From the NCBI GenBank assembly GCA_028714475.1, contig JAQTNC010000006.1, forward strand, positions 1-47,452: a stretch of DNA of 47,452 nt, written 5' to 3'. Under the pieces are notes generated by a model. It was not told where the DNA came from and did not search any database. It saw only the letters and a list, made by a program, of their open reading frames with translations. Of the stretch, positions 4,855 through 45,411 are shown in pieces (the stretch's first letter is position 1; the number at the start of each line of letters is the position of its first letter). The DNA is from Patescibacteria group bacterium. GTDB lineage: Bacteria > Patescibacteriota > Patescibacteriia > SG8-24. The translations under genes and the position numbers were made by a program.

Positions 4855-6273
4855 CTACTTTACGGTCTGGTTGACCTTGGCGGCCGTGAGTTCCAGCAGG
4901 CGCTTGAAGTCAGCTCCCCCTTCGAGCGACTGGCTGATTAGTTCCTTGAAGGCCGTTTCCGCGGCGTTGGCGTCAACCCCGCGATACCAGCTGCGGGCGG
5001 TCGGCACTTCGGCCGCGAACACGGACAGGTCGAGGTCCTCGAGTTGGCTGCTCAAGAGCGAACGCAGGGCGGCCGGGCGCTTCGCCGTCTGAAGGTATTT
5101 CTTGGTCTCCTCGGCCTTGGTGATGAACTGAACCAGATCCCAAGCCTCGTTCGGATACTTGGTGTTCTTGGACACGGTCTCCACCCAGTAATTCGCGTAG
5201 TTGACCGGCTGGTTGTTCTCGATCTGCGGGAACGGCGCGAGGCCGAAATTCAATTGCGGGTTCAGCGAGCGAATCATCGGCAGGTGGTAGGAATAGCCGA
5301 AGAAATACGCCACCTTGCCCTCGACAAAGGCCTGCAACGAGCCCGGCATCTTGGCGTTCCAGGTATAGACTTCCTTCTCGGGGTTGGCGAAATCGTTGTA
5401 GAAGGTCAAGGCCACGGCACCGGGCGGAAGCGGCTGGCCTTCGGTGCCGGACGTGTAGCGGTCAAAGGTCGCCGTGCCGTCCTCGGCGGTCATCGGCGTG
5501 CCGTTCTGCATCATGAGCAGGGCGAGGATGTCGGTCGAGCGCTCGATGTTGTCGGCCGTGCCGAGGGCGGCGGCGGACTGGATGATGTTGCCGACCTGAT
5601 CGAGCTTGGTCAGGCGCTTGACCTGCTCCTGGAACTCGCGCCAACCGGCGGCCGGCTGGGCGACGCCGGCGGCGTTAAGCAAATCGCGGTTGTAGTACAC
5701 GACCAAGGTGTCCACCGAGAGCGGCAGGCCATAGACGCGCGGCACGAGCGGCGCGGTGGGGGTGTCTTGCTCGGTCGGCAGGATGACGTCGCTCGCGACC
5801 ACGTCCACGAAATCGTTGGTTACGGACTTCACGGTCGGGCCCGGCAGGGTCCTCAAGACCGTGACGATCTCCTTCTTGATGGTGCCTTGCTGTTCGCGGA
5901 ACGGCATGGTCACGGTCGCCGGCGCAGGCAGGAGACGCGGCTCCCACTCGCGCAGCCAGGTGTTGTGGAGACTGATGATGTCCGGTCCCTCGTCCTGTGC
6001 CATCGCGTCGAGGATGGCTTTCTCGTACTCGTCGTAACGGAGCTTGCGGTAGTCGATGCTGACATTGGGGTGGAGCTTCTGGTAATCATCCAGGAGCGGC
6101 CCGATGGCATCGGTGTCGTCGAAAACGCGCCAATACTTGAGTGTCAGCGGTTGGGCGCGCTTCAGCGCCTCCGCGTCAACCGTCCTGCAGCCGAAACCGG
6201 CGAGCGGCAAAACGACTAAAACACCAGTGAGCAGAGCGCTTGTAAGCAAGGTTTTTGCCCTCATCTTCGTCAT
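4855..6273 (-). CDS. ABC-type extracellular solute-binding lipoprotein (MalE-like)
   Basis: Lipobox LAGFGC, LKYWRVFDDTD, GLPLSVDTLVVYYNRDLL, NEAWDLVQFI; start at MTKMRAK. Confidence 0.85.
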   Translation of the reverse strand: MTKMRAKTLLTSALLTGVLVVLPLAGFGCRTVDAEALKRAQPLTLKYWRVFDDTDAIGPLLDDYQKLHPNVSIDYRKLRYDEYEKAILDAMAQDEGPDIISLHNTWLREWEPRLLPAPATVTMPFREQQGTIKKEIVTVLRTLPGPTVKSVTNDFVDVVASDVILPTEQDTPTAPLVPRVYGLPLSVDTLVVYYNRDLLNAAGVAQPAAGWREFQEQVKRLTKLDQVGNIIQSAAALGTADNIERSTDILALLMMQNGTPMTAEDGTATFDRYTSGTEGQPLPPGAVALTFYNDFANPEKEVYTWNAKMPGSLQAFVEGKVAYFFGYSYHLPMIRSLNPQLNFGLAPFPQIENNQPVNYANYWVETVSKNTKYPNEAWDLVQFITKAEETKKYLQTAKRPAALRSLLSSQLEDLDLSVFAAEVPTARSWYRGVDANAAETAFKELISQSLEGGADFKRLLELTAAKVNQTVK

Positions 6274-6277
6274 AAGG

Positions 6278-7171
6278 CTAGGCGTTCTTTGCGGTCTTAT
6301 CACAGAAGCCGCGCAGTAGCTTTTCGAATTCGCCGTTCTTGTTGACCTCTTGATGCTTCAACCCGTAGTGGATGCCTGCGGCCATGAAACCCAGTTTGTT
6401 GCCACAATCGTAACGCTCGCCGTCAACCACGCGGCCATACATCTTGTTCCCCTGCGCGCAGTAGGCCTGGAAAGCATCGGCCAGCCGAATCTCACCGTCT
6501 TTTGCCGGTTCAATGGTTTTGAGGATTTTCAAAATGTCCGGCGTCACCAAGTAACGGCCGACGCCAACCAAGGTTGACGGTGCCTCCTCTGCTTTTGGCT
6601 TCTCGACATAACCGCTGATTTCCATCACCTTTTCGGAAATCATCTTGCCGGAGGCAACGCCATACTTCTCGGTCTCCTCACGAGGAACGTTAAGCAACGC
6701 CGCGACGGCACCGCCGGTCTGCTCGTGAACCTCCATAAGCTGGGCCGCGGCTGGCACTTCTGAATCAATGATGTCGTCGCCGTAAAGCACCAACACAGCC
6801 TCATCCTCATCGATGAAAGGCAGGGCGGAGAGAATGGCATGGCCGTCGCCAAGCGGAACCTGTTGGCGGACGAAGGCGAACTTCGCCATGTTGTTGATGT
6901 GGTGCATCATTTCCAGCTCCTTGGTCTTACCCTTGCTCACCAAGCGCTGTTCCAGTTCGGCATTGCGGTCGAAATGATCCTCGACGGCACGCTTCATCTG
7001 ATCGGTCACGAAAATAATCTCTTCGATGCCGCTGGCGACGACTTCCTCGACGATGTACTGAACGATTGGCTTGTCCACGATGGTCAACATCGCCTTGGGC
7101 TGGGCTTTTACTGCTGGCAAGAAACGAGTGCCGAGGCCGGCGATGGGGATGATGGCTTTGCGGATTTTCAT
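6278..7171 (-). CDS. galU: UTP-glucose-1-phosphate uridylyltransferase
   Basis: KAIIPIAGLGTRFLPAVKAQPKAMLTIVDKPIVQYIVEE and following GalU motifs. Confidence 0.95.
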   Translation of the reverse strand: MKIRKAIIPIAGLGTRFLPAVKAQPKAMLTIVDKPIVQYIVEEVVASGIEEIIFVTDQMKRAVEDHFDRNAELEQRLVSKGKTKELEMMHHINNMAKFAFVRQQVPLGDGHAILSALPFIDEDEAVLVLYGDDIIDSEVPAAAQLMEVHEQTGGAVAALLNVPREETEKYGVASGKMISEKVMEISGYVEKPKAEEAPSTLVGVGRYLVTPDILKILKTIEPAKDGEIRLADAFQAYCAQGNKMYGRVVDGERYDCGNKLGFMAAGIHYGLKHQEVNKNGEFEKLLRGFCDKTAKNA

Positions 7172-7344: not shown

Positions 7345-8745
7345 TCAGTAATCTCCGGGGACGGTCGCGGAAATCATGCTGTTGGCGGAGCTGACGATTC
7401 GCTGGTATTCCGGCTGTTCCGGGGTCGGTTTGGTGTCAATCATGTAGGCGAACGCCTCCTCGACCGTGGCGTAATCGGTGCCGCGATACCAGGTTTTGGC
7501 CGTCAGCACCTGATTCACGAAGGGGGCAACACCTGGGTCGCCGGTCTGGCTCTTGATGAGGGTGCGCAGGGCGGTCGGGCGTTTGGTCGCTTGGAGGAAA
7601 AGCGTGGCCTGCTCCGGCTGGGCGGCGAACTGAAGGAAATCCCAAGCTTCGTTCACGTGGGTCGTCTTCTTGGAAACGACCTCGACCGGGTAGTGGGCCA
7701 GGCTGGCCGGCTTATTCGGCTCCACCTGCGGCATGGGCGCGGCAGCAAAGTCGAGGCGCGGCGCGCGTTCGGCAATCTGGCGGGCGTCAGCGGGGAAGCC
7801 GAAGTAGAAGGCCGTCTGGCCGGCGACGAAGGCGTCGAGGGAATTCGGCCGATCGGCGTTCCAGGTGTAGCTTTGCGAAGCGGGGTCGGCAAAGCTCTCG
7901 TAGAACAGGAGCGCCTCGACGCCGGGCGGGAACTGCACGACATCCTTGCTTTTGGTGCCGTACTGGTCCAGGCCGGGATAACCGTTGGCGTCCTCGAGCG
8001 GTGCGCCGTTCTGCAGCATGATGAGCGCGAGCAGGTCGGTATAATTGCGGACGTTAGCCGAGGTGCCGAGGGCGGCGCCGGACTGGCGAATCGCGCCGTC
8101 CGCGCCCTTCAGGGTGAGTGCCTGAACCTGATTCACGAACTCGTTCCAGTTGGCCGGCGGCTTCTCCAGGTTGGCTTTCTTCAGGAGCTCGCGGTTGTAA
8201 TATAGGCCAAGGGTGTCGAGCGAAAACGGCAGGCCGTAGATGCGCTGTTCGGGCAGGCCGTCCGCCTTCTCCGGCGGCGCCCACATGACCACGTCGCGGG
8301 CGGCGGCTTCGACGAAGCTGTTGCGCAATTCCAGCATGGACATCGTCGGCTTTTTCTTGTTTTCGGTGACGATCTGCTTTTGGTCGTTGACCGTGACGGT
8401 CGCCACCTGGATTTCCTTGGGCAACGGCAGGAGGCGGGCTTTCCAGCCGCGCAGGTCAACGTTCGGCAGGCTGAACATGTCCGGGCCGCGATTTTCGGCG
8501 AGGGCCGTCACGAGTTCGCGCTCATAGGTCTCGGTCGGAAAGACGCGGTAGTTTATCGTGACGTGCGGGTGGATTTTCTGGTAAGCATCGATGACGCCTT
8601 TCAGCGTCTCGGTCTGATCCTCCGTGCGCCAATATTCCAGCGTCACCGGCTTGGGAGCGGGAGTGGACGGCGTCCAAGGGCAGCCAGCGCCGGTCAGGGC
8701 GAGGGCGGCGAGGGCAAATCCGAAAAGATAGCGGTTTTTTTGCAT
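7345..8745 (-). CDS. ABC-type extracellular solute-binding lipoprotein, second copy
   Basis: Lipobox LTGAGC, LEYWRTEDQTE, GLPFSLDTLGLYYNRELL, NEAWDFLQFA; paralogous to 4855-6273. Confidence 0.85.
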   Translation of the reverse strand: MQKNRYLFGFALAALALTGAGCPWTPSTPAPKPVTLEYWRTEDQTETLKGVIDAYQKIHPHVTINYRVFPTETYERELVTALAENRGPDMFSLPNVDLRGWKARLLPLPKEIQVATVTVNDQKQIVTENKKKPTMSMLELRNSFVEAAARDVVMWAPPEKADGLPEQRIYGLPFSLDTLGLYYNRELLKKANLEKPPANWNEFVNQVQALTLKGADGAIRQSGAALGTSANVRNYTDLLALIMLQNGAPLEDANGYPGLDQYGTKSKDVVQFPPGVEALLFYESFADPASQSYTWNADRPNSLDAFVAGQTAFYFGFPADARQIAERAPRLDFAAAPMPQVEPNKPASLAHYPVEVVSKKTTHVNEAWDFLQFAAQPEQATLFLQATKRPTALRTLIKSQTGDPGVAPFVNQVLTAKTWYRGTDYATVEEAFAYMIDTKPTPEQPEYQRIVSSANSMISATVPGDY

Positions 8746-14860: not shown

Positions 14861-15268
14861 GGCGGCACATAAACAACGTCCGGCCGGGCGGGGTGCCCTT
14901 CTCGGCGCGCTCGCCGCTCCAGTCACGCCGCCATTCCGGCGAAAGCCGAGAACCAGACAGAAACCCGTGCTCCCGCCGGTCGGGCCCGCTTCCGTCGACA
15001 GCGCTCGCGCTGGATGCGTAATTGCGCGAGCGATTGTCTCCGGAACCGGGTCCGCCCGTCGGTCGCCCCGCTCCGCGTCACCCGCGGCTTCTACTTACAA
15101 CCATTTATTAGTAAGCGCTCGGCCTGCGGGAGCCGCCAAGCATGGCGGCTTGGCCTCGCGAAATGAAGTCATCTATTCCGCAATGTGTGCTTCGCACATC
15201 TTATATCCCCAAGATGTAGGGCTTTGATATTGTCGGCGCCATTGACATCGAAGCCGTTTTGCGGGAGT

Positions 15269-15288
15269 GTGTGTACATTCCTACACAC
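15269..15288. promoter_or_regulatory. operator-like inverted repeat GTGTGTA-N6-TACACAC
   Basis: Perfect 7-bp arms, 8 bp upstream of ATG 15297. Confidence 0.5.
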
Positions 15289-15296
15289 CCACCACA

Positions 15297-16538
15297 ATGA
15301 TTGACCGACAAGAAATCGATGCAAAGGCGTCCGAATTCAACATCCAGCCGTCTGATGTCCAGAAGGACTATGTTTACGGATGGATGCTTAAAGGTATCTT
15401 CGAGAACCACGCCCTCGGGCAGCGACTCTCCCTCAAGGGCGGGGCCGCCTTGAGGAAGGCTTACTTTGCGGAGTCACGGTTCTCGAAAGACCTCGACTTT
15501 TCGGTGGCGGAGGAAGTAGACGAGGCGTTCCTTCACGACGCACTGAACGAAGTGTGCGGCTTCGTGACCGAAAACACGGGGGTCAAATTCCGGCTCGACC
15601 GAACGCTCGTCGAAGACAAGGGGGTACCGATTGCCGGACGCCAGGTGCTCGAGGCTCGCGCATACTTCGACAGTTTCTACGGCGAAAAGGAGATGATCCT
15701 AAAGACGCAACTCGACGTGACCCAGTTCGACAAGCACTATCTGCCACTCCAAAGGCCGGCTCTACTTCACCCCTACTCGGACAAGGATACTTGCGCCACC
15801 ACGCTCGTCTGCCAGAAGGCAGAGGAGATTTTCGCGTCGAAGCTGGTGGCCCTCCTGCACCGCAGAAGGGCGAAGGATCTCTTCGACCTCTTCTGTGGAC
15901 TGATCATCAACCGCGTGCCGCCGGTGAACAGGACGGAGGTCATCACAACGTTCTTGAAGAGGTCGATATACGAGCCAATACCAAGCCAAGGCAAGCAGCA
16001 CCTGCTAGACATCCCTATCGAGGAGTCACGGAGTTTCTGGGGAGGTCTTGTTGTTCCCGCCGCCGCACTTTACAGCTTCGACCATGTCGCGACGAACTTC
16101 CACCAGCTCATCGAAGAACTCTTCGCCCTCGTGCCCGCTCCGGCTCTTGCTGCCCCTGCACCACGCGGCTTCACGCACAGCGGAATACGGAGGCCGACAC
16201 ATTCGTCCATTTACCCCAGGGCAACCTCTCATTCCCCCTCGCCGAGTTACGACTTCGGTGGACTCTCCTCGTCCGACAGGAATACAATCATTGATGCCGG
16301 ACGATCTCAGACGCTCATCGAGCTCGGTTACAAGGGATACCGACGTCTCGTCGAGCCATACAAGTTTGAATACCGAATTCGACAGAGCGACAACCGTGGC
16401 ATCGAATATTTTTGGGGCTATGACCGGAGCGGCGGCGAGTCAGGTAAGACAAGCATCAAACAATTTTTCGTGGACGAGATCGAATACGTTAGGCCTACGA
16501 CCAGCCAATTCATACCTCAGTGGACAGTTGAGCTATAG
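15297..16538 (+). CDS. AbiEii/AbiGii-type nucleotidyltransferase with C-terminal WYL-like domain
   Basis: KGGAALRKAYFAESRFSKDLDFSV; RRRAKDLFDLFCGL; C-term LIELGYKGYRRLVEPYKFEYR...EYFWGYD...IKQFFVDEIEYV. Confidence 0.8.
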   Translation: MIDRQEIDAKASEFNIQPSDVQKDYVYGWMLKGIFENHALGQRLSLKGGAALRKAYFAESRFSKDLDFSVAEEVDEAFLHDALNEVCGFVTENTGVKFRLDRTLVEDKGVPIAGRQVLEARAYFDSFYGEKEMILKTQLDVTQFDKHYLPLQRPALLHPYSDKDTCATTLVCQKAEEIFASKLVALLHRRRAKDLFDLFCGLIINRVPPVNRTEVITTFLKRSIYEPIPSQGKQHLLDIPIEESRSFWGGLVVPAAALYSFDHVATNFHQLIEELFALVPAPALAAPAPRGFTHSGIRRPTHSSIYPRATSHSPSPSYDFGGLSSSDRNTIIDAGRSQTLIELGYKGYRRLVEPYKFEYRIRQSDNRGIEYFWGYDRSGGESGKTSIKQFFVDEIEYVRPTTSQFIPQWTVEL

Positions 16539-39228: not shown

Positions 39229-39320
39229 GTTCTTGGTGCTAGGTTATAGTTTAATAATAAGGCCGCCCAAAAGGCGGCTTAACTATTAAATATAAACTAG
39301 AAACTAGTAGCTAGAACCTA
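39226..39320. repeat. imperfect long inverted repeat spanning convergent gene ends, with central terminator
   Basis: TAGGTTCT (39226-39233) / AGAACCTA (39313-39320); GGCCGCC-caaaa-GGCGGCTT core. Confidence 0.6.
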
Positions 39321-40754
39321 CTCCGCCACCGGCAAGCTGAAACTGAATGTGCTGCCCTTGCCCGGCTCAGACTTGAAGGCCACGTCGCCGCCCATGCGCT
39401 GAATCAGTTCCTTGACGATGAAGAGCCCCAAGCCGGTGCCCGCTTGCGCGCGGACGGCAAAGTCCTCGGAACGCCAGAATTTCTCAAAGAGGCGTTTCTG
39501 GTCCTCAACGCTGATGCCGATGCCGGTGTCCTTGACGCTGGTCCAAAGGAGGCCGTCCTTCAGTTCGTGAGTGACGGTGATGGTGCCGCCAGTCAGGTTA
39601 TACTTCACGGCATTGCTCACCAGGTTCGAGAGGACCTCCTTCAGCTTGTCGGCGTCCGCCATCACGCGCGGCATGCCCGGCAACGGCTCGTAGCGCAAGG
39701 TCACGCCCTTCGTCACGGCGGCCGGACGCATCTCGTTCAAGAGCAGGACCGTCAGGTTGCCGATGTCCTGTGGGGCGACCTCGATTTTCAGCCGACCGGC
39801 TTCGGTGCGCGATACCTCAAGCAGGTCATCAACAAGGTGGAGCAGGCGGTCATTGGCTTCCTGCATCTTGGCGAGGTAACCGCGCAAAACCGGCTCGATG
39901 ACCAAACGTTTGTCCTCGAAGATGATGTCGAGCAGCAGGCGGATGGCCGTGACCGGGTTGCGCAGCTCATGGGCGGCCACGAAGACGAATTCGTTCTTGA
40001 GCTGGTCAACCCGCAAGCGATCGGATTGGTCGCTATACGACTCCATGATGACGCCGTCCCCGCCGTCCATCGCTTCGACGAGCCCATAGGTCACCTTGAC
40101 CGGCACCTCGCTGCCGTTCGGCCGGCGGAATCGGAACTGCCGCACGATTCGCTTGCTGCGCCGGAGAGCCGCCATGTCCAGCCGCGTGCCTTCCGCATCA
40201 GGCGGATAAAAAGCCGAGACTGGCTTGCCGACAATCTCGTCGGCGCGATAACCGGTGATGTCCTCGGCGGCGCGGTTGATCATCATGACCCGCCGCTCCA
40301 GGTCGGTGACGCACAGGCCATACGGCGAGTTGTTGACGATGGAACGGAAATAATCGCGGGCCTTGCGGACTTCCGTTTCGATGAGCTTGCGCACGCGCAC
40401 GTCCCGACCCAGGTAGAAGAGGCCGGTGACGGCGCCGCGACGCACGATGGCCGAAGCGACGAATTCATAATCCGCCAATCGGGCGCTACGCAGGCGAACC
40501 TTGGTCTGGAACTCGATGGAATGAGCCTGGCCAGCCAAAACGCGCCGCAGTCCGGCTGGCGGCTGCGGAAAAATCTTTTCCAAGGACCAACCGACCAGCT
40601 CGCGTCGCGCATAACCCAGCTCCTCGAGAGCGGCGCGATTGACGGCCAAAATGCGATGGGCGGCGTCGGTCACGAAGACCGCCTCCGGCATCTCGTCAAT
40701 CGGCTGGACGAAGTGTCGGTTGTTTTTGGGCGTTGTTTTCCTGATCGTGGCCAT
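39318..40754 (-). CDS. cytosolic PAS-PAS sensor histidine kinase
   Basis: Two PAS segments; FVAAHELRNPVTAIR H-box; VSNAVKYN; DTGIGIS; GTGLGLFIV. Confidence 0.92.
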   Translation of the reverse strand: MATIRKTTPKNNRHFVQPIDEMPEAVFVTDAAHRILAVNRAALEELGYARRELVGWSLEKIFPQPPAGLRRVLAGQAHSIEFQTKVRLRSARLADYEFVASAIVRRGAVTGLFYLGRDVRVRKLIETEVRKARDYFRSIVNNSPYGLCVTDLERRVMMINRAAEDITGYRADEIVGKPVSAFYPPDAEGTRLDMAALRRSKRIVRQFRFRRPNGSEVPVKVTYGLVEAMDGGDGVIMESYSDQSDRLRVDQLKNEFVFVAAHELRNPVTAIRLLLDIIFEDKRLVIEPVLRGYLAKMQEANDRLLHLVDDLLEVSRTEAGRLKIEVAPQDIGNLTVLLLNEMRPAAVTKGVTLRYEPLPGMPRVMADADKLKEVLSNLVSNAVKYNLTGGTITVTHELKDGLLWTSVKDTGIGISVEDQKRLFEKFWRSEDFAVRAQAGTGLGLFIVKELIQRMGGDVAFKSEPGKGSTFSFSLPVAE

Positions 40755-40764
40755 AGTAGAATCG

Positions 40765-41025
40765 CTATCTCTTGCCTAACCCTTCCAGGCAGGAACGCAG
40801 GAAATCGGTGCCGGGCACGCCAACAAAACGCCGCTCGCCAATCACGACCGTCGGCAGGGCCTCGATGTTGAGTTTCTCGGCCAAATCCGGACGATCGCTG
40901 ATTTCCACGATATCCAAGTCCCCGCCGGCCGAAACGCAGGCCGACTCCACCTGTCGGCGCACGTAGTGGTACGTGGCCGATTCCCGGGAGACGAAGAGGA
41001 TGATGCGGTGTCGCACCGTCGCCAT
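40765..41025 (-). CDS. KaiB-like / thioredoxin-fold small protein lacking CxxC
   Basis: RIILFVSRESATYHYVRRQVESA...LDIVEISDRPDLAEKLNIEALPTVVIGERRFVGVP; between kaiC-like and kinase genes. Confidence 0.6.
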   Translation of the reverse strand: MATVRHRIILFVSRESATYHYVRRQVESACVSAGGDLDIVEISDRPDLAEKLNIEALPTVVIGERRFVGVPGTDFLRSCLEGLGKR

Positions 41026-41031
41026 ATGTTT

Positions 41032-42513
41032 TTATCGCCGACGCCGTCGCGCCGGGCGTTTCGGGGCGACTGGCACTGCCCCGCAGACCCGGTCACTGGC
41101 AATCGGCACGCAGAAACCACGGTCAGTAATCTCGTAACGGCGTACTTCCTTGTCGTGAGACGAGGCACGCGACTTGGCGACGAGCAAGGTCCGCTCCATC
41201 TTGCCGTCACGCTCGGAGAAGCTCATGACGAGGATGTTATCGGTCAGCACGGCCAGGTCGGATTCGGCGGCCAAGGAGGATTCAAGGCCATCGCCGGTCG
41301 TGTAGTTGACAACGGTCGTGGCCTGACGCGAACGCAGGAAAGACAGCAGGGAAACAACGAACCGTCGGAACCGCTGCTCATCCACCGCGTTGGCGAGCGG
41401 CATGAGGCTGTCGATGACGACGCGCTTCGGGCGGTACTCATCCGCGACTTCCTTCAGGCGCTTCAGGCAGGACTCGATTGGCCGGCCATCGGGCTGCCAA
41501 GTGACCACGCGGAGCAGGCCATGCCGTTCGGCCTCGCCAAAAGACATGCCCAGCGAATCGGCGTCCGCAACCAGCTGATTCCTACTTTCCTCAAAGGAAA
41601 TCAGCAGGCATTTTTCGCGACGACGGACGCCAGCCGCGAGGAAATGCAGGCCGAGCACGGTGCGACCGGTGCCGGAAGGCCCGAGCAGAAGCGTCACGGA
41701 ATTACGGAAGACTCCTCCGTCCATCATGCTATCGATGCCCACCACTCCCAAAGACACGCGTCCGGACGAAATCGCATCGCCCGACAACCGCCGTTCCCGC
41801 GGAAAAACCGTCAAACCGGCGTCGTCGATAAGCAGGGGGTGCTTGCCCGTCTGATGGCTGCCTCCACGCAGCTTGATGACCTCGATCTGCCTTTCCCGCT
41901 GCCGTCCGGATTCGGTATTGAAGAGGCCGACGACACTGTCCGCGACGAAATCCTCGACGCCGAAACGGGAAACGGCGTCCTCGTCGCGCACCCGTTCGGC
42001 AGTGATGACGGTCGTGACATCCAGATCGCGCAAGGCGCCGATGATGCGCGACAGTTCGCGGCGCACCAAAGACGTATCGCGATAACGCAGAAACAGCGAA
42101 CCGATGCCGTCAATGACGCAACGCTTGGCCTTCACCTTGCCGATGGCATAGCGGAGACGGGCCACCAAGCCGCCGAAATCGTATTCGCCCACTTCCACCT
42201 GGCTCGCGGCGATGCGGCTCGCGTCCACGAAAGCGAGCAGACCGCGCTTTTCCAAGCCGGCCAAGTCCCAGCCGAAACCGGCCATCTCGCTCATGATGTC
42301 CACCCGACGCTCCTCAAAAGTCACGAAAACTCCCGGTTCGCGCAGGCGCGTCGCCCCATAATTGAGGAAAGCCGCGCCAAAAACCGTCTTGCCGGAGCCG
42401 GCACTGCCGGAAATGACCGTGGCGCGGCCGCGCGGCAAGCCCCCTTCGGCTAACTCGTCAAAACCGGGGATGCCGGTTGGCGTTTTCGCAAGCATTCGAT
42501 GGGCTTTTGGCAT
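41032..42513 (-). CDS. KaiC-family double-domain RecA-like ATPase
   Basis: GIPGFDELAEGGLPRGRATVISGSAGSGKT; FVTFEER; RFGVEDFVADSVVGLFNTESGRQRERQIEVIKLRGGSHQTGKHPLLI; second domain GPSGTGRT, LLISFEES. Confidence 0.9.
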   Translation of the reverse strand: MPKAHRMLAKTPTGIPGFDELAEGGLPRGRATVISGSAGSGKTVFGAAFLNYGATRLREPGVFVTFEERRVDIMSEMAGFGWDLAGLEKRGLLAFVDASRIAASQVEVGEYDFGGLVARLRYAIGKVKAKRCVIDGIGSLFLRYRDTSLVRRELSRIIGALRDLDVTTVITAERVRDEDAVSRFGVEDFVADSVVGLFNTESGRQRERQIEVIKLRGGSHQTGKHPLLIDDAGLTVFPRERRLSGDAISSGRVSLGVVGIDSMMDGGVFRNSVTLLLGPSGTGRTVLGLHFLAAGVRRREKCLLISFEESRNQLVADADSLGMSFGEAERHGLLRVVTWQPDGRPIESCLKRLKEVADEYRPKRVVIDSLMPLANAVDEQRFRRFVVSLLSFLRSRQATTVVNYTTGDGLESSLAAESDLAVLTDNILVMSFSERDGKMERTLLVAKSRASSHDKEVRRYEITDRGFCVPIASDRVCGAVPVAPKRPARRRRR

Positions 42514-42580: not shown

Positions 42581-44134
42581 ATGTTGAATATGCCCGCCTC
42601 CAAAGCCCCAGCCAAAACCGGCGCCAGTTCCTTCTTCCTCAAGAAGAACTGGCAGATCATTTACGCGATCATCCTCATCGTCCTCATTCCGATTACCGTC
42701 GTCCTGAACACGTTTTTCGTCGTCAACCGCTTCCGGAAAACCGTGGATGTCGAACTGCAGCGCACGGCACTCATCATCGGCAAGATGGTGAACGTCACGA
42801 GCGTCGATCTTTTCGGCGACCAGGCCGCGCTGCAAAAACGCCTGGATGATGTCGCATCCGTCCTGCCTGAAGTCAAGATGCTCGACGTGCTCGCCAAGGA
42901 AGGCGAGGACTTCAAGGTGGTCGCGAGCCTTTACCGCGAAGGCATCGGCCAACCGGCTCACGGCAACCACAACATCCTGGCCTGGTACAACCAACAGGCC
43001 ATCGCCTACCTGACCAAATCCGGACGCTCCGCCGCCGTGGACGACACGCTAACGGCCGAGGAAGTCCGCCTCGGCGACCGTTATTGGGGTGTCGTCATGC
43101 CGCTCACCGACCGCGACGGCAAGGAGACATACCTGCTCTCCGCGAAAATATCGCTGTCAGTCATCGACAACCTGGTGAGCGACAACCTCTTCTGGTCCTA
43201 CCTTTGGCTCGGCATCACCATCTTCATCGTCGTGCTGGTGCTCTCGTCGAACACACGGCTATTCGAGTACGCGGTCCTTTTCCGCAAGCTGAAGGAAGTT
43301 GATCAGATGAAGGACGACTTCATCTCGATGGCCTCGCACGAACTGCGCGCGCCGATCACCGCCATCCGCGGCTACCTTTCGCTCTTCCTCGAGGACGCCT
43401 ACGGGAAACTTGATGACAAACCGAAGGGCGTGCTCAAGACGACGTTCGCCATCGCCACACACTTGGCCGGATTGGTGGAGGACCTTCTTGACGTGTCCCG
43501 CATCGAACAGGGTCGCATGTCCCTGTCGTTGGAGAAGGTCTCCCCCGAGGAGCTCATTGCCGAAATCGTCGAGCAGCTGCATTTCGAGGCGGAAAGGAAA
43601 GGCCTGACCTTCGAGTTCCGCAAGCCGGAAAAACCGCTGCCGCTCATCGAGGTCGACAAGTCGCGCTTGAGGCAGGTGCTCATCAACCTCTGTTCCAACG
43701 CCATCAAATACACGCCGCAGGGTTCGGTGACCGTCACGGCTGAACTCAAGGAAAACGCGATGGTGGAGATAAAGATCACCGACACCGGCCTCGGCATGTC
43801 GGCGGAAGCGCGCGAGAAGCTCTTCCAGAAGTTCTACCGCGTCAAGACCGACCTGACGCGCGACATCCCCGGCACTGGCCTGGGCCTCTGGATCACCAAG
43901 CAAATCGTGGAAATCATGAAGGGCAAGATATTCGTCGATTCCATCGAGAAAGTCGGCACGCAAGCCAGCGTGGTGTTTCCGGCATTGAAGACTGCCCCGG
44001 CCAAGGAGCCGGGGGGCGCTCCGACACAGCCGCTAGGAGCCGCGCCGGAAAAACCGGGCACCGTGCCACCCGTTAGCCCACCCTCCAAGCCCCCGACTCC
44101 GCCGCCCTCAACGCTAGGCGAGAAAACCGTATGA
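42581..44134 (+). CDS. membrane sensor histidine kinase with extracytoplasmic sensor
   Basis: TM-~150 aa-TM, FISMASHELRAPITAIRGYLSLFLED, NLCSNAIKYTPQG, GTGLGLWI. Confidence 0.92.
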   Translation: MLNMPASKAPAKTGASSFFLKKNWQIIYAIILIVLIPITVVLNTFFVVNRFRKTVDVELQRTALIIGKMVNVTSVDLFGDQAALQKRLDDVASVLPEVKMLDVLAKEGEDFKVVASLYREGIGQPAHGNHNILAWYNQQAIAYLTKSGRSAAVDDTLTAEEVRLGDRYWGVVMPLTDRDGKETYLLSAKISLSVIDNLVSDNLFWSYLWLGITIFIVVLVLSSNTRLFEYAVLFRKLKEVDQMKDDFISMASHELRAPITAIRGYLSLFLEDAYGKLDDKPKGVLKTTFAIATHLAGLVEDLLDVSRIEQGRMSLSLEKVSPEELIAEIVEQLHFEAERKGLTFEFRKPEKPLPLIEVDKSRLRQVLINLCSNAIKYTPQGSVTVTAELKENAMVEIKITDTGLGMSAEAREKLFQKFYRVKTDLTRDIPGTGLGLWITKQIVEIMKGKIFVDSIEKVGTQASVVFPALKTAPAKEPGGAPTQPLGAAPEKPGTVPPVSPPSKPPTPPPSTLGEKTV

Positions 44135-45411
44135 TGGAAATATTCCTCGTTGTCCTGTTGCTTTCGGTCTCCGCCGTGCTGACCGGCGTTGAGGCCGCCT
44201 TCCTGGTCGTGAGCGACATTCGCGTGAAGACGCTCATGCACCGCGGCGACCGGCGTGCCCTGCTCCTGCACGAGTTGCGCAGCAACATGCACCGACTGCT
44301 GGGCGTCATCCTGCTCGTCCAGGTCATCTGCGACGTGGCGGCCTCCGCGCTCGCCACCGTCGCCGCCACAAAGGCGTTCGGTCACGCGGGCATCGGCGTC
44401 GCCACTGGCGTCATGACCGTGTTGGTGCTCATTTTCGGCCAGCTCGTGCCCAAGACGCTGGCCGCCCGCCAGCCGGAACGCTGGTCGCTTTACATGGCCA
44501 AACCGATGACCTGGCTCGTCTGGCTACTCGGTCCGCCGCTCGTAGTCGTGGAAAAAATCGTCAAGCTGGTTCTGCATCGAGAGGTCCGTTTCGACACCGA
44601 ACACGTCATCAGCGAGGAGGAAATCAAGACCATGGCCTCGCTTGGCGCGGAGGCAGGGACGGTCGAGACAGAAGAAGCCGAGATGATCAAGCGGGTCTTC
44701 CTCTTCAATGACATCAACGCGAGCGACGTGATGACCCCGAAGGAGAATGTCGTCTTCCTCGACGGCGCCCACACGTTGGCCGAGGCCATGCCCATCATCG
44801 ACAGCAACGGCTATTCCCGCTACCCGGTCTTTGGCCGCGACAAGAACGACATCATCGGCATCGTCCACATCAAGGATGTCTTCCGCCGCCATGCCGAAAA
44901 CCTCTGTCAGTCGCTTGGTCATCTGCGCCTGCGAGACCTCGCGGAACCGGCGTCTTTCGTGCCGCACAAGAAACACCTCGATGATCTCCTGCGCGACATG
45001 CAAAAACAGCACGTCCACATGGCCATTGTCGTCAATGAGTTCGGCTCCATGGACGGCGTCGTCACTTTCGAGGACCTGATGGAGGAGCTGGTCGGAGAAA
45101 TCGCCGACGAGTCGGACGTGGACGAGACGACCGTCAAGCGGGTGGATCGCCTGAACATCGTCGTGCATGGCGACGCGGAAATCAAGGACATCAACCGGTT
45201 CTTCAACTCGCGCCTGGAAGGTCCGCCATTCAAGTCCATCGCCTGGCTCGTGCTCAAGGAACTCGGCACTCTGCCGGAAAAAGGCCAGCGGGTACAGCTG
45301 GGCAGCCAGATGACCGCAACAGTGGAGGAAATCATCAACCACCGCATCAACCGCATTCGCCTCACCAAAACTGAAGCAGAACCTAACCCGACCGACGATG
45401 CCGCTCGCTGA
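44131..45411 (+). CDS. CNNM/CorC-HlyC family transporter with CBS domains
   Basis: LTGVEAAFLVVSDIRVKTL; VMTPKENVVFLDGAHTLAEAMPIIDSNGYSRYPVFGRDKNDIIGIVHIKDV. Confidence 0.9.
   Translation: MMEIFLVVLLLSVSAVLTGVEAAFLVVSDIRVKTLMHRGDRRALLLHELRSNMHRLLGVILLVQVICDVAASALATVAATKAFGHAGIGVATGVMTVLVLIFGQLVPKTLAARQPERWSLYMAKPMTWLVWLLGPPLVVVEKIVKLVLHREVRFDTEHVISEEEIKTMASLGAEAGTVETEEAEMIKRVFLFNDINASDVMTPKENVVFLDGAHTLAEAMPIIDSNGYSRYPVFGRDKNDIIGIVHIKDVFRRHAENLCQSLGHLRLRDLAEPASFVPHKKHLDDLLRDMQKQHVHMAIVVNEFGSMDGVVTFEDLMEELVGEIADESDVDETTVKRVDRLNIVVHGDAEIKDINRFFNSRLEGPPFKSIAWLVLKELGTLPEKGQRVQLGSQMTATVEEIINHRINRIRLTKTEAEPNPTDDAAR

Follow-up and report, generated by a model that had tools for sequence, protein, structure and literature searches.

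A conserved kaiC, kaiB-like, and histidine kinase operon in Parcubacteria and its possible role as a signaling switch

Kai proteins tend to be taken as clocks, and a KaiC homolog that adjoins a KaiB homolog and a histidine kinase in a bacterium with a reduced genome raises the question of whether such a gene set keeps time or does something else. We address this for three minus-strand genes in a window of 47,452 nucleotides, by which we mean the whole stretch of DNA that was analyzed. This window is part of an 80-kb contig in a 100%-complete, 1.41-Mb genome of the Parcubacteria (CPR), as fits the small-genome host that a first-pass annotation had surmised.

The operon and its neighborhood

The kaiC homolog (41032–42513, 493 aa) is followed by the kaiB homolog (40765–41025, 86 aa) and the kinase gene (39318–40754, 478 aa), all on the minus strand and each beginning with ATG. 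Read from the DNA, the intergenic gaps are 6 bp (41026–41031) and 10 bp (40755–40764), the tight packing that the first-pass annotation had described, and as it had also said, no kaiA-like ORF is seen adjoining the triad. Base composition gives no signal of recent transfer, the G+C content being flat at 58–63% across the region. The kaiC and kaiB genes share a reading frame and are separated only by TAA AAA CAT (41026–41034), so that stop read-through would fuse them; in another genus of the family (genome G005), the two lie in different frames, with an overlap of 4 bases.

The triad is found, in the same order and synteny, in three of the ten genomes of the family, each from a different genus (G000, to which the window belongs, G005, and G008). 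All three ORFs are intact in all three, and the proteins are 45 to 59% identical in the two other genera; recurrence at such identity, with gene order and synteny retained, argues that the arrangement is not due to chance, and the suspicion that it might not be conserved in relatives is thus contradicted. With KaiC or the 86-aa protein as the query, only G005 and G008, both of the same family, gave matches among 197 relatives besides the genome itself. An even draw of 389 genomes of the phylum added nothing except one single-domain KaiC-like match, and a class search around G266, covering eight genomes only, found nothing; in the searchable open literature, we found no Kai system described from reduced-genome Parcubacteria.

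In the three triad genomes, glycosyltransferase and membrane genes and a plus-strand C39 peptidase gene precede the minus-strand kinase, kaiB, and kaiC, which are followed by a divergent membrane kinase, a CNNM/CorC gene, and a thioredoxin gene. Three other genomes (G003, G004, and G006) lack the triad at this site, and the genes of the C39 peptidase and the membrane kinase are direct neighbors there. Of the triad, G007 and G009 have only the soluble kinase gene, placed after the C39 gene, and G001 likewise carries that kinase but no kaiBC. The membrane-type histidine kinase gene (42581–45411 in the window), whose end is overlapped by the gene for the CNNM/CorC-type transporter, is kept in seven of the ten family genomes, with or without the Kai triad. 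In G005, the C39-type peptidase gene is broken into two frames that overlap (L014:4373–5331), through a frameshift or an assembly error. Elsewhere in the window, 15267–16538 encodes an AbiEii-family nucleotidyltransferase (PF08843, 3.7e-22), possibly a component of a type IV toxin–antitoxin system. The genes of two extracellular solute-binding proteins (SBP_bac_1; 4855–6303 and 7345–8745) lie on either side of a nucleotidyltransferase gene that shares their strand.

The two ATPase domains of KaiC

The 493-aa protein was put down at first sight as a double-RecA ATPase of the KaiC family, and the searches bear this out: Pfam finds the KaiC ATPase (PF06745) in two stretches (4.9e-108), the two fused KaiC/RecA domains CI and CII, and the PDB match to KaiC stands at 1.2e-122. 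With 486 bits, it exceeds the cut-off of 408 for NCBIfam NF006799, and with 399.6, it stays under that of 546.25 for the stricter TIGR02655. For comparison of the motifs, we aligned 83 KaiCs, namely the window's own and that of G008, together with 81 that come from 79 loci in the genome collection (locus L016 being that of G005). The CI domain appears fully equipped: its Walker A motif GSAGSGKT (residues 36–43; 42385–42408, minus strand) and catalytic EE (residues 67–68) are intact, the GSGKT and FEE being invariant in the three genera and found in other KaiCs too, and the R-finger segment, the KLRG segment, and the equivalent of the KaiB-binding B-loop are all kept in the alignment.

The CII domain has kept its catalytic EE and the Walker B Asp. 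Its Walker A motif reads GPSGTGRT (residues 278–285; 41659–41682, minus strand), the P-loop Lys being replaced by Arg284 (codon 41662–41664); the Arg is found in all three Parcubacteria genera (as GPSGTGRT or GGSGTGRT), against a Lys in 80 of the 80 other KaiCs. The phospho-acceptor segment is AESDLAV (residues 416–422; 41248–41268, minus strand), with A416, A421, and V422 at the positions of T426, S431, and T432. Across the three genera, A/V, A/M, and A/V stand in place of S431/T432 and A in place of T426, against hydroxyl residues in nearly all other sequences, and the A-loop that follows CII in nine other KaiCs printed is missing in the three from Parcubacteria. None of the features of a clock-type autokinase (the CII Walker A Lys, T426/S431/T432, and the A-loop) is thus present in the window's KaiC, and judging from the sequence, a phosphorylation cycle should be impossible. 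The combined loss is notable given that, according to Schmelling et al., the KaiC motifs are highly conserved in cyanobacteria and autokinase activity is found even in archaeal relatives (PMC5520375). Loss of the CII Lys need not abolish the binding of KaiB, since in a clock KaiC with the K294H change (in a phosphomimic background), complexes of KaiB with the KaiC monomer still form (PMC3823767).

In two of the three genera, the A-loop is replaced by Arg/Lys-rich C-terminal tails (G000, window 41032–41100; G005, L014:7153–7250), which could bind nucleic acid or membrane. In a quick tree search, the KaiCs of Parcubacteria, Curtissbacteria, Elusimicrobia, and Sedimentisphaerales group together with an SH-aLRT of 100, a grouping made unsafe by long branches. 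The Elusimicrobia kaiC is preceded by genes (L017:2389–4425) whose translations resemble, by eye, CheW-, CheC/CheX-, and CheD-type chemotaxis proteins.

The small protein and the kinase

The 86-aa protein had been described as having a thioredoxin or KaiB fold, with a comparison against KaiB and the SasA N-domain as the way to decide. Taken singly, it matches Thioredoxin_3 (3.6e-5) and KaiB (6.3e-4) in Pfam, both under the curated cut-off, the single proteins of the family scoring 20 to 23 bits against 27 for KaiB; the homologs of Curtissbacteria, where the same variant stands directly after kaiC, score 30.8 and 32.6 and pass that gathering score. In hhalign, it matches the profile of 71 kaiC-linked KaiBs over residues 8–70 (probability 97, E 3.6e-11), against 25% for Thioredoxin_3 proteins with CxxC and 95% (E 4.3e-8, C-terminal half only) for classical thioredoxins and glutaredoxins, a comparison set that includes one wrong-frame row (L129); KaiB is the only family to align with its N-terminal two thirds. 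A profile search finds the glutaredoxin-like 1j08 at 3.3e-10, KaiB 8ubh at 2.7e-7, and the SasA N-domain 1t4y at 2e-4. Foldseek ranks the Legionella KaiB 4kun second, with thioredoxins making up most of the top matches, and does not by itself separate KaiB from thioredoxin. The CxxC pair is absent in five of the five homologs, with SRESATY or SKTSIYF seen at the active-site position, and the gene always adjoins kaiC, in two CPR lineages. With the profile match, the missing cysteines, and the adjacency to kaiC, the protein is, at the level of sequence, KaiB-like rather than glutaredoxin-like, the contrary outcome having been one of those that the first-pass annotation named as refuting.

From a five-row alignment, AF2 predicts for this protein the thioredoxin-like topology only, that is, the fold-switched state that binds KaiC (pLDDT 84); for a cyanobacterial KaiB with an equally shallow alignment, the control prediction has a C-terminal helix and then a terminal strand, as in the ground state (pLDDT 63). 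Apparently, then, the homolog is held in the binding fold, a prediction from five sequences being compatible with a minor ground state. An R-I-I-G-D type segment, found in the C-terminal half of 66 of the 71 canonical kaiC-linked KaiBs, gives way to a short GERRFVGVP-type hairpin in the CPR proteins, and where other KaiBs have the half that switches folds, the 86-aa protein has a hairpin and helix of the ordinary thioredoxin type. Several of the KaiB residues that touch KaiC (K43 and K58 in T. elongatus numbering) are not conserved. The B-loop, on which the homolog would bind, is kept in CI of KaiC.

The kinase consists, according to Pfam, of two PAS domains, HisKA, and HATPase_c, the double-PAS make-up first noticed, with no receiver. 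Orthologs are found in six of the ten family genomes at about 46–56% identity, and PAS1 is present in the three that stand with kaiBC and absent in the three that do not (G001, G007, and G009), a correlation behind which there may be one or two evolutionary events. In a small tree, the G001 kinase comes out beside that of G000, a placement that hints at independent co-losses but has a support of only 0.47. The G001 locus (L100; G001:C8:92611–93675) has one TGA within the kinase-match frame; its intact ORF encodes 376 aa and one PAS only, which may reflect the loss of a longer N-terminus. With kinases that adjoin kaiC in other phyla, the identity is about 22% only, and the gene was thus probably not inherited with those operons but recruited separately. 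No cognate response regulator adjoins the kinase; the genome has five receiver matches, and the two that were read are stand-alone receivers of about 142 aa.

A proposed switch, its alternatives, and known Kai systems

Overall, we favor, at a probability of roughly 55%, a three-gene KaiC signaling switch without a phosphorylation cycle, in which a CI-ATPase/KaiB switch is coupled to the kinase. We infer the interaction of the three proteins from the operon alone, and the evidence for the switch is drawn from the sequences of three triad genomes in one family. CII would at most bind ATP and form a static hexamer scaffold; P-loops of RecA and RAD51 with the same Lys-to-Arg change bind ATP and barely hydrolyze it. 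CI would hydrolyze ATP, and its nucleotide state would decide whether the KaiB homolog, which would always be in its binding fold, attaches to the B-loop. Between this docking and the kinase, the extra PAS1 would probably be the link, the signal running either from KaiBC to the kinase or from the kinase PAS to KaiBC, and the output would probably go to one of the stand-alone receivers elsewhere in the genome. The overall role would be that of a relay of the energy or stress state, not of a timer. More tentatively, and at somewhat less than an even chance, we propose that each part has the specific form drawn here, with CII as a nucleotide-locked scaffold, KaiB fixed in the binding fold, and the CI state read by the kinase through a dedicated PAS.

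Of the other explanations, the one that survives best, though we consider it unlikely, is that the 86-aa protein takes the role of the N-terminal domain of SasA in trans, staying in the thioredoxin fold, reading the CI state of KaiC and presenting it to the PAS kinase. Its predicted thioredoxin-like fold is like that of the SasA N-domain, which the profile search found besides KaiB, and in each of the three genera, the kinase gene comes directly downstream of it; against this, locus L021 of Curtissbacteria carries kaiC and the same variant of the small protein, and where the contig continues, no kinase follows; besides, the functions of KaiB and the SasA N-domain are inseparable by sequence. 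Less probable still is a decaying remnant, with CII losing its function and the operon being lost: the presence of the triad is patchy, several relatives lacking it or retaining the kinase only, but three intact ORFs persist in three genera at 45–59% identity, and the Lys-to-Arg change and the losses of phospho-sites are common to all three while the CI motifs, the CII catalytic EE, and the Walker B Asp are kept.

We give slightly less credence to a true KaiBC timer, whether hourglass or oscillator, with the kinase as a SasA-like output. The homologs of KaiC and KaiB, the intact CI motifs, and the adjoining kinase would fit, as would the KaiBC hourglass of R. sphaeroides, which works without KaiA (PMC10076222) and whose kaiBC operon includes a PAS/histidine kinase gene (PMC5520375, PMC6627678). 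The known KaiBC timers, however, depend on the phosphorylation of CII (PMC10076222), as does the KaiABC oscillator, and for it the lysine, the acceptor residues, and the A-loop are gone in all three genera, and a KaiB apparently confined to one fold would remove the slow fold switch. Of the timing or stress signaling once suggested for this locus, it is thus the timing that lacks support, a signaling module being plausible. Least credible of all is an ordinary thioredoxin or glutaredoxin sitting in the operon by chance, which the Thioredoxin_3, Foldseek, and 1j08 matches would favor and which is largely refuted by the missing active-site cysteines, besides the KaiB-only alignment of the N-terminal two thirds and the constant place next to kaiC.

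If the switch without a phosphorylation cycle is the right reading, reduced-genome bacteria possess a stripped-down KaiC output system, and KaiC–KaiB signaling is possible without timekeeping. While the gene set has been kept, the chemistry of phosphorylation is gone, and so, apparently, is the fold switch of KaiB; the triad thus makes the role of a KaiBC that is unable to keep time testable and offers for structural work a minimal, probably always-binding KaiB.

Compared with known systems, the triad is of a familiar kind. Like R. sphaeroides, it has KaiB and KaiC, no KaiA, and an operon that includes a PAS/histidine kinase gene; in 21 of 80 kaiC loci (the Parcubacteria locus included), a same-strand kinase lies within 1.5 kb downstream; and in Oligoflexales (L038), kaiC is likewise followed by a PAS-PAS-HisKA-HATPase kinase, with kaiB adjacent. 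In R. sphaeroides, however, CII is an active kinase with an A-loop and a coiled coil, KaiB interconverts between folds, and the gene order differs from the kaiC-kaiB-kinase found here, whereas the Oligoflexales locus has kaiB upstream of kaiC, intact CII motifs, and a kinase of about 22% identity to the Parcubacteria one. The KaiB of Legionella pneumophila (Lpp1115, PDB 4kun; about 26% identity to the 86-aa protein in the structural alignment) and KaiB-4 of T. vestitus (PDB 8UBH, PMC10808063), which are among the best structural or profile matches, are found in the thioredoxin-like, fold-switched state that is predicted here. With KaiABC-SasA of Synechococcus, the triad shares a KaiC CI with a B-loop, a partner of KaiB fold, and a histidine kinase; unlike there, we see no KaiA, no phospho-sites, and no A-loop. 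The parallel first drawn with KaiC, KaiB, and SasA holds as far as a KaiC, a KaiB homolog, and a kinase in one conserved operon are concerned but not for the kinase itself, which begins with two PAS domains, has no fused KaiB-like N-terminal domain, and is thus not of the SasA type in architecture. Going by sequence and predicted structure, the novelty relative to a known kaiBC–PAS kinase operon appears to lie in a CII that is disabled, a thioredoxin-type KaiB that is apparently locked, the kaiC-kaiB order, and the Parcubacteria host.
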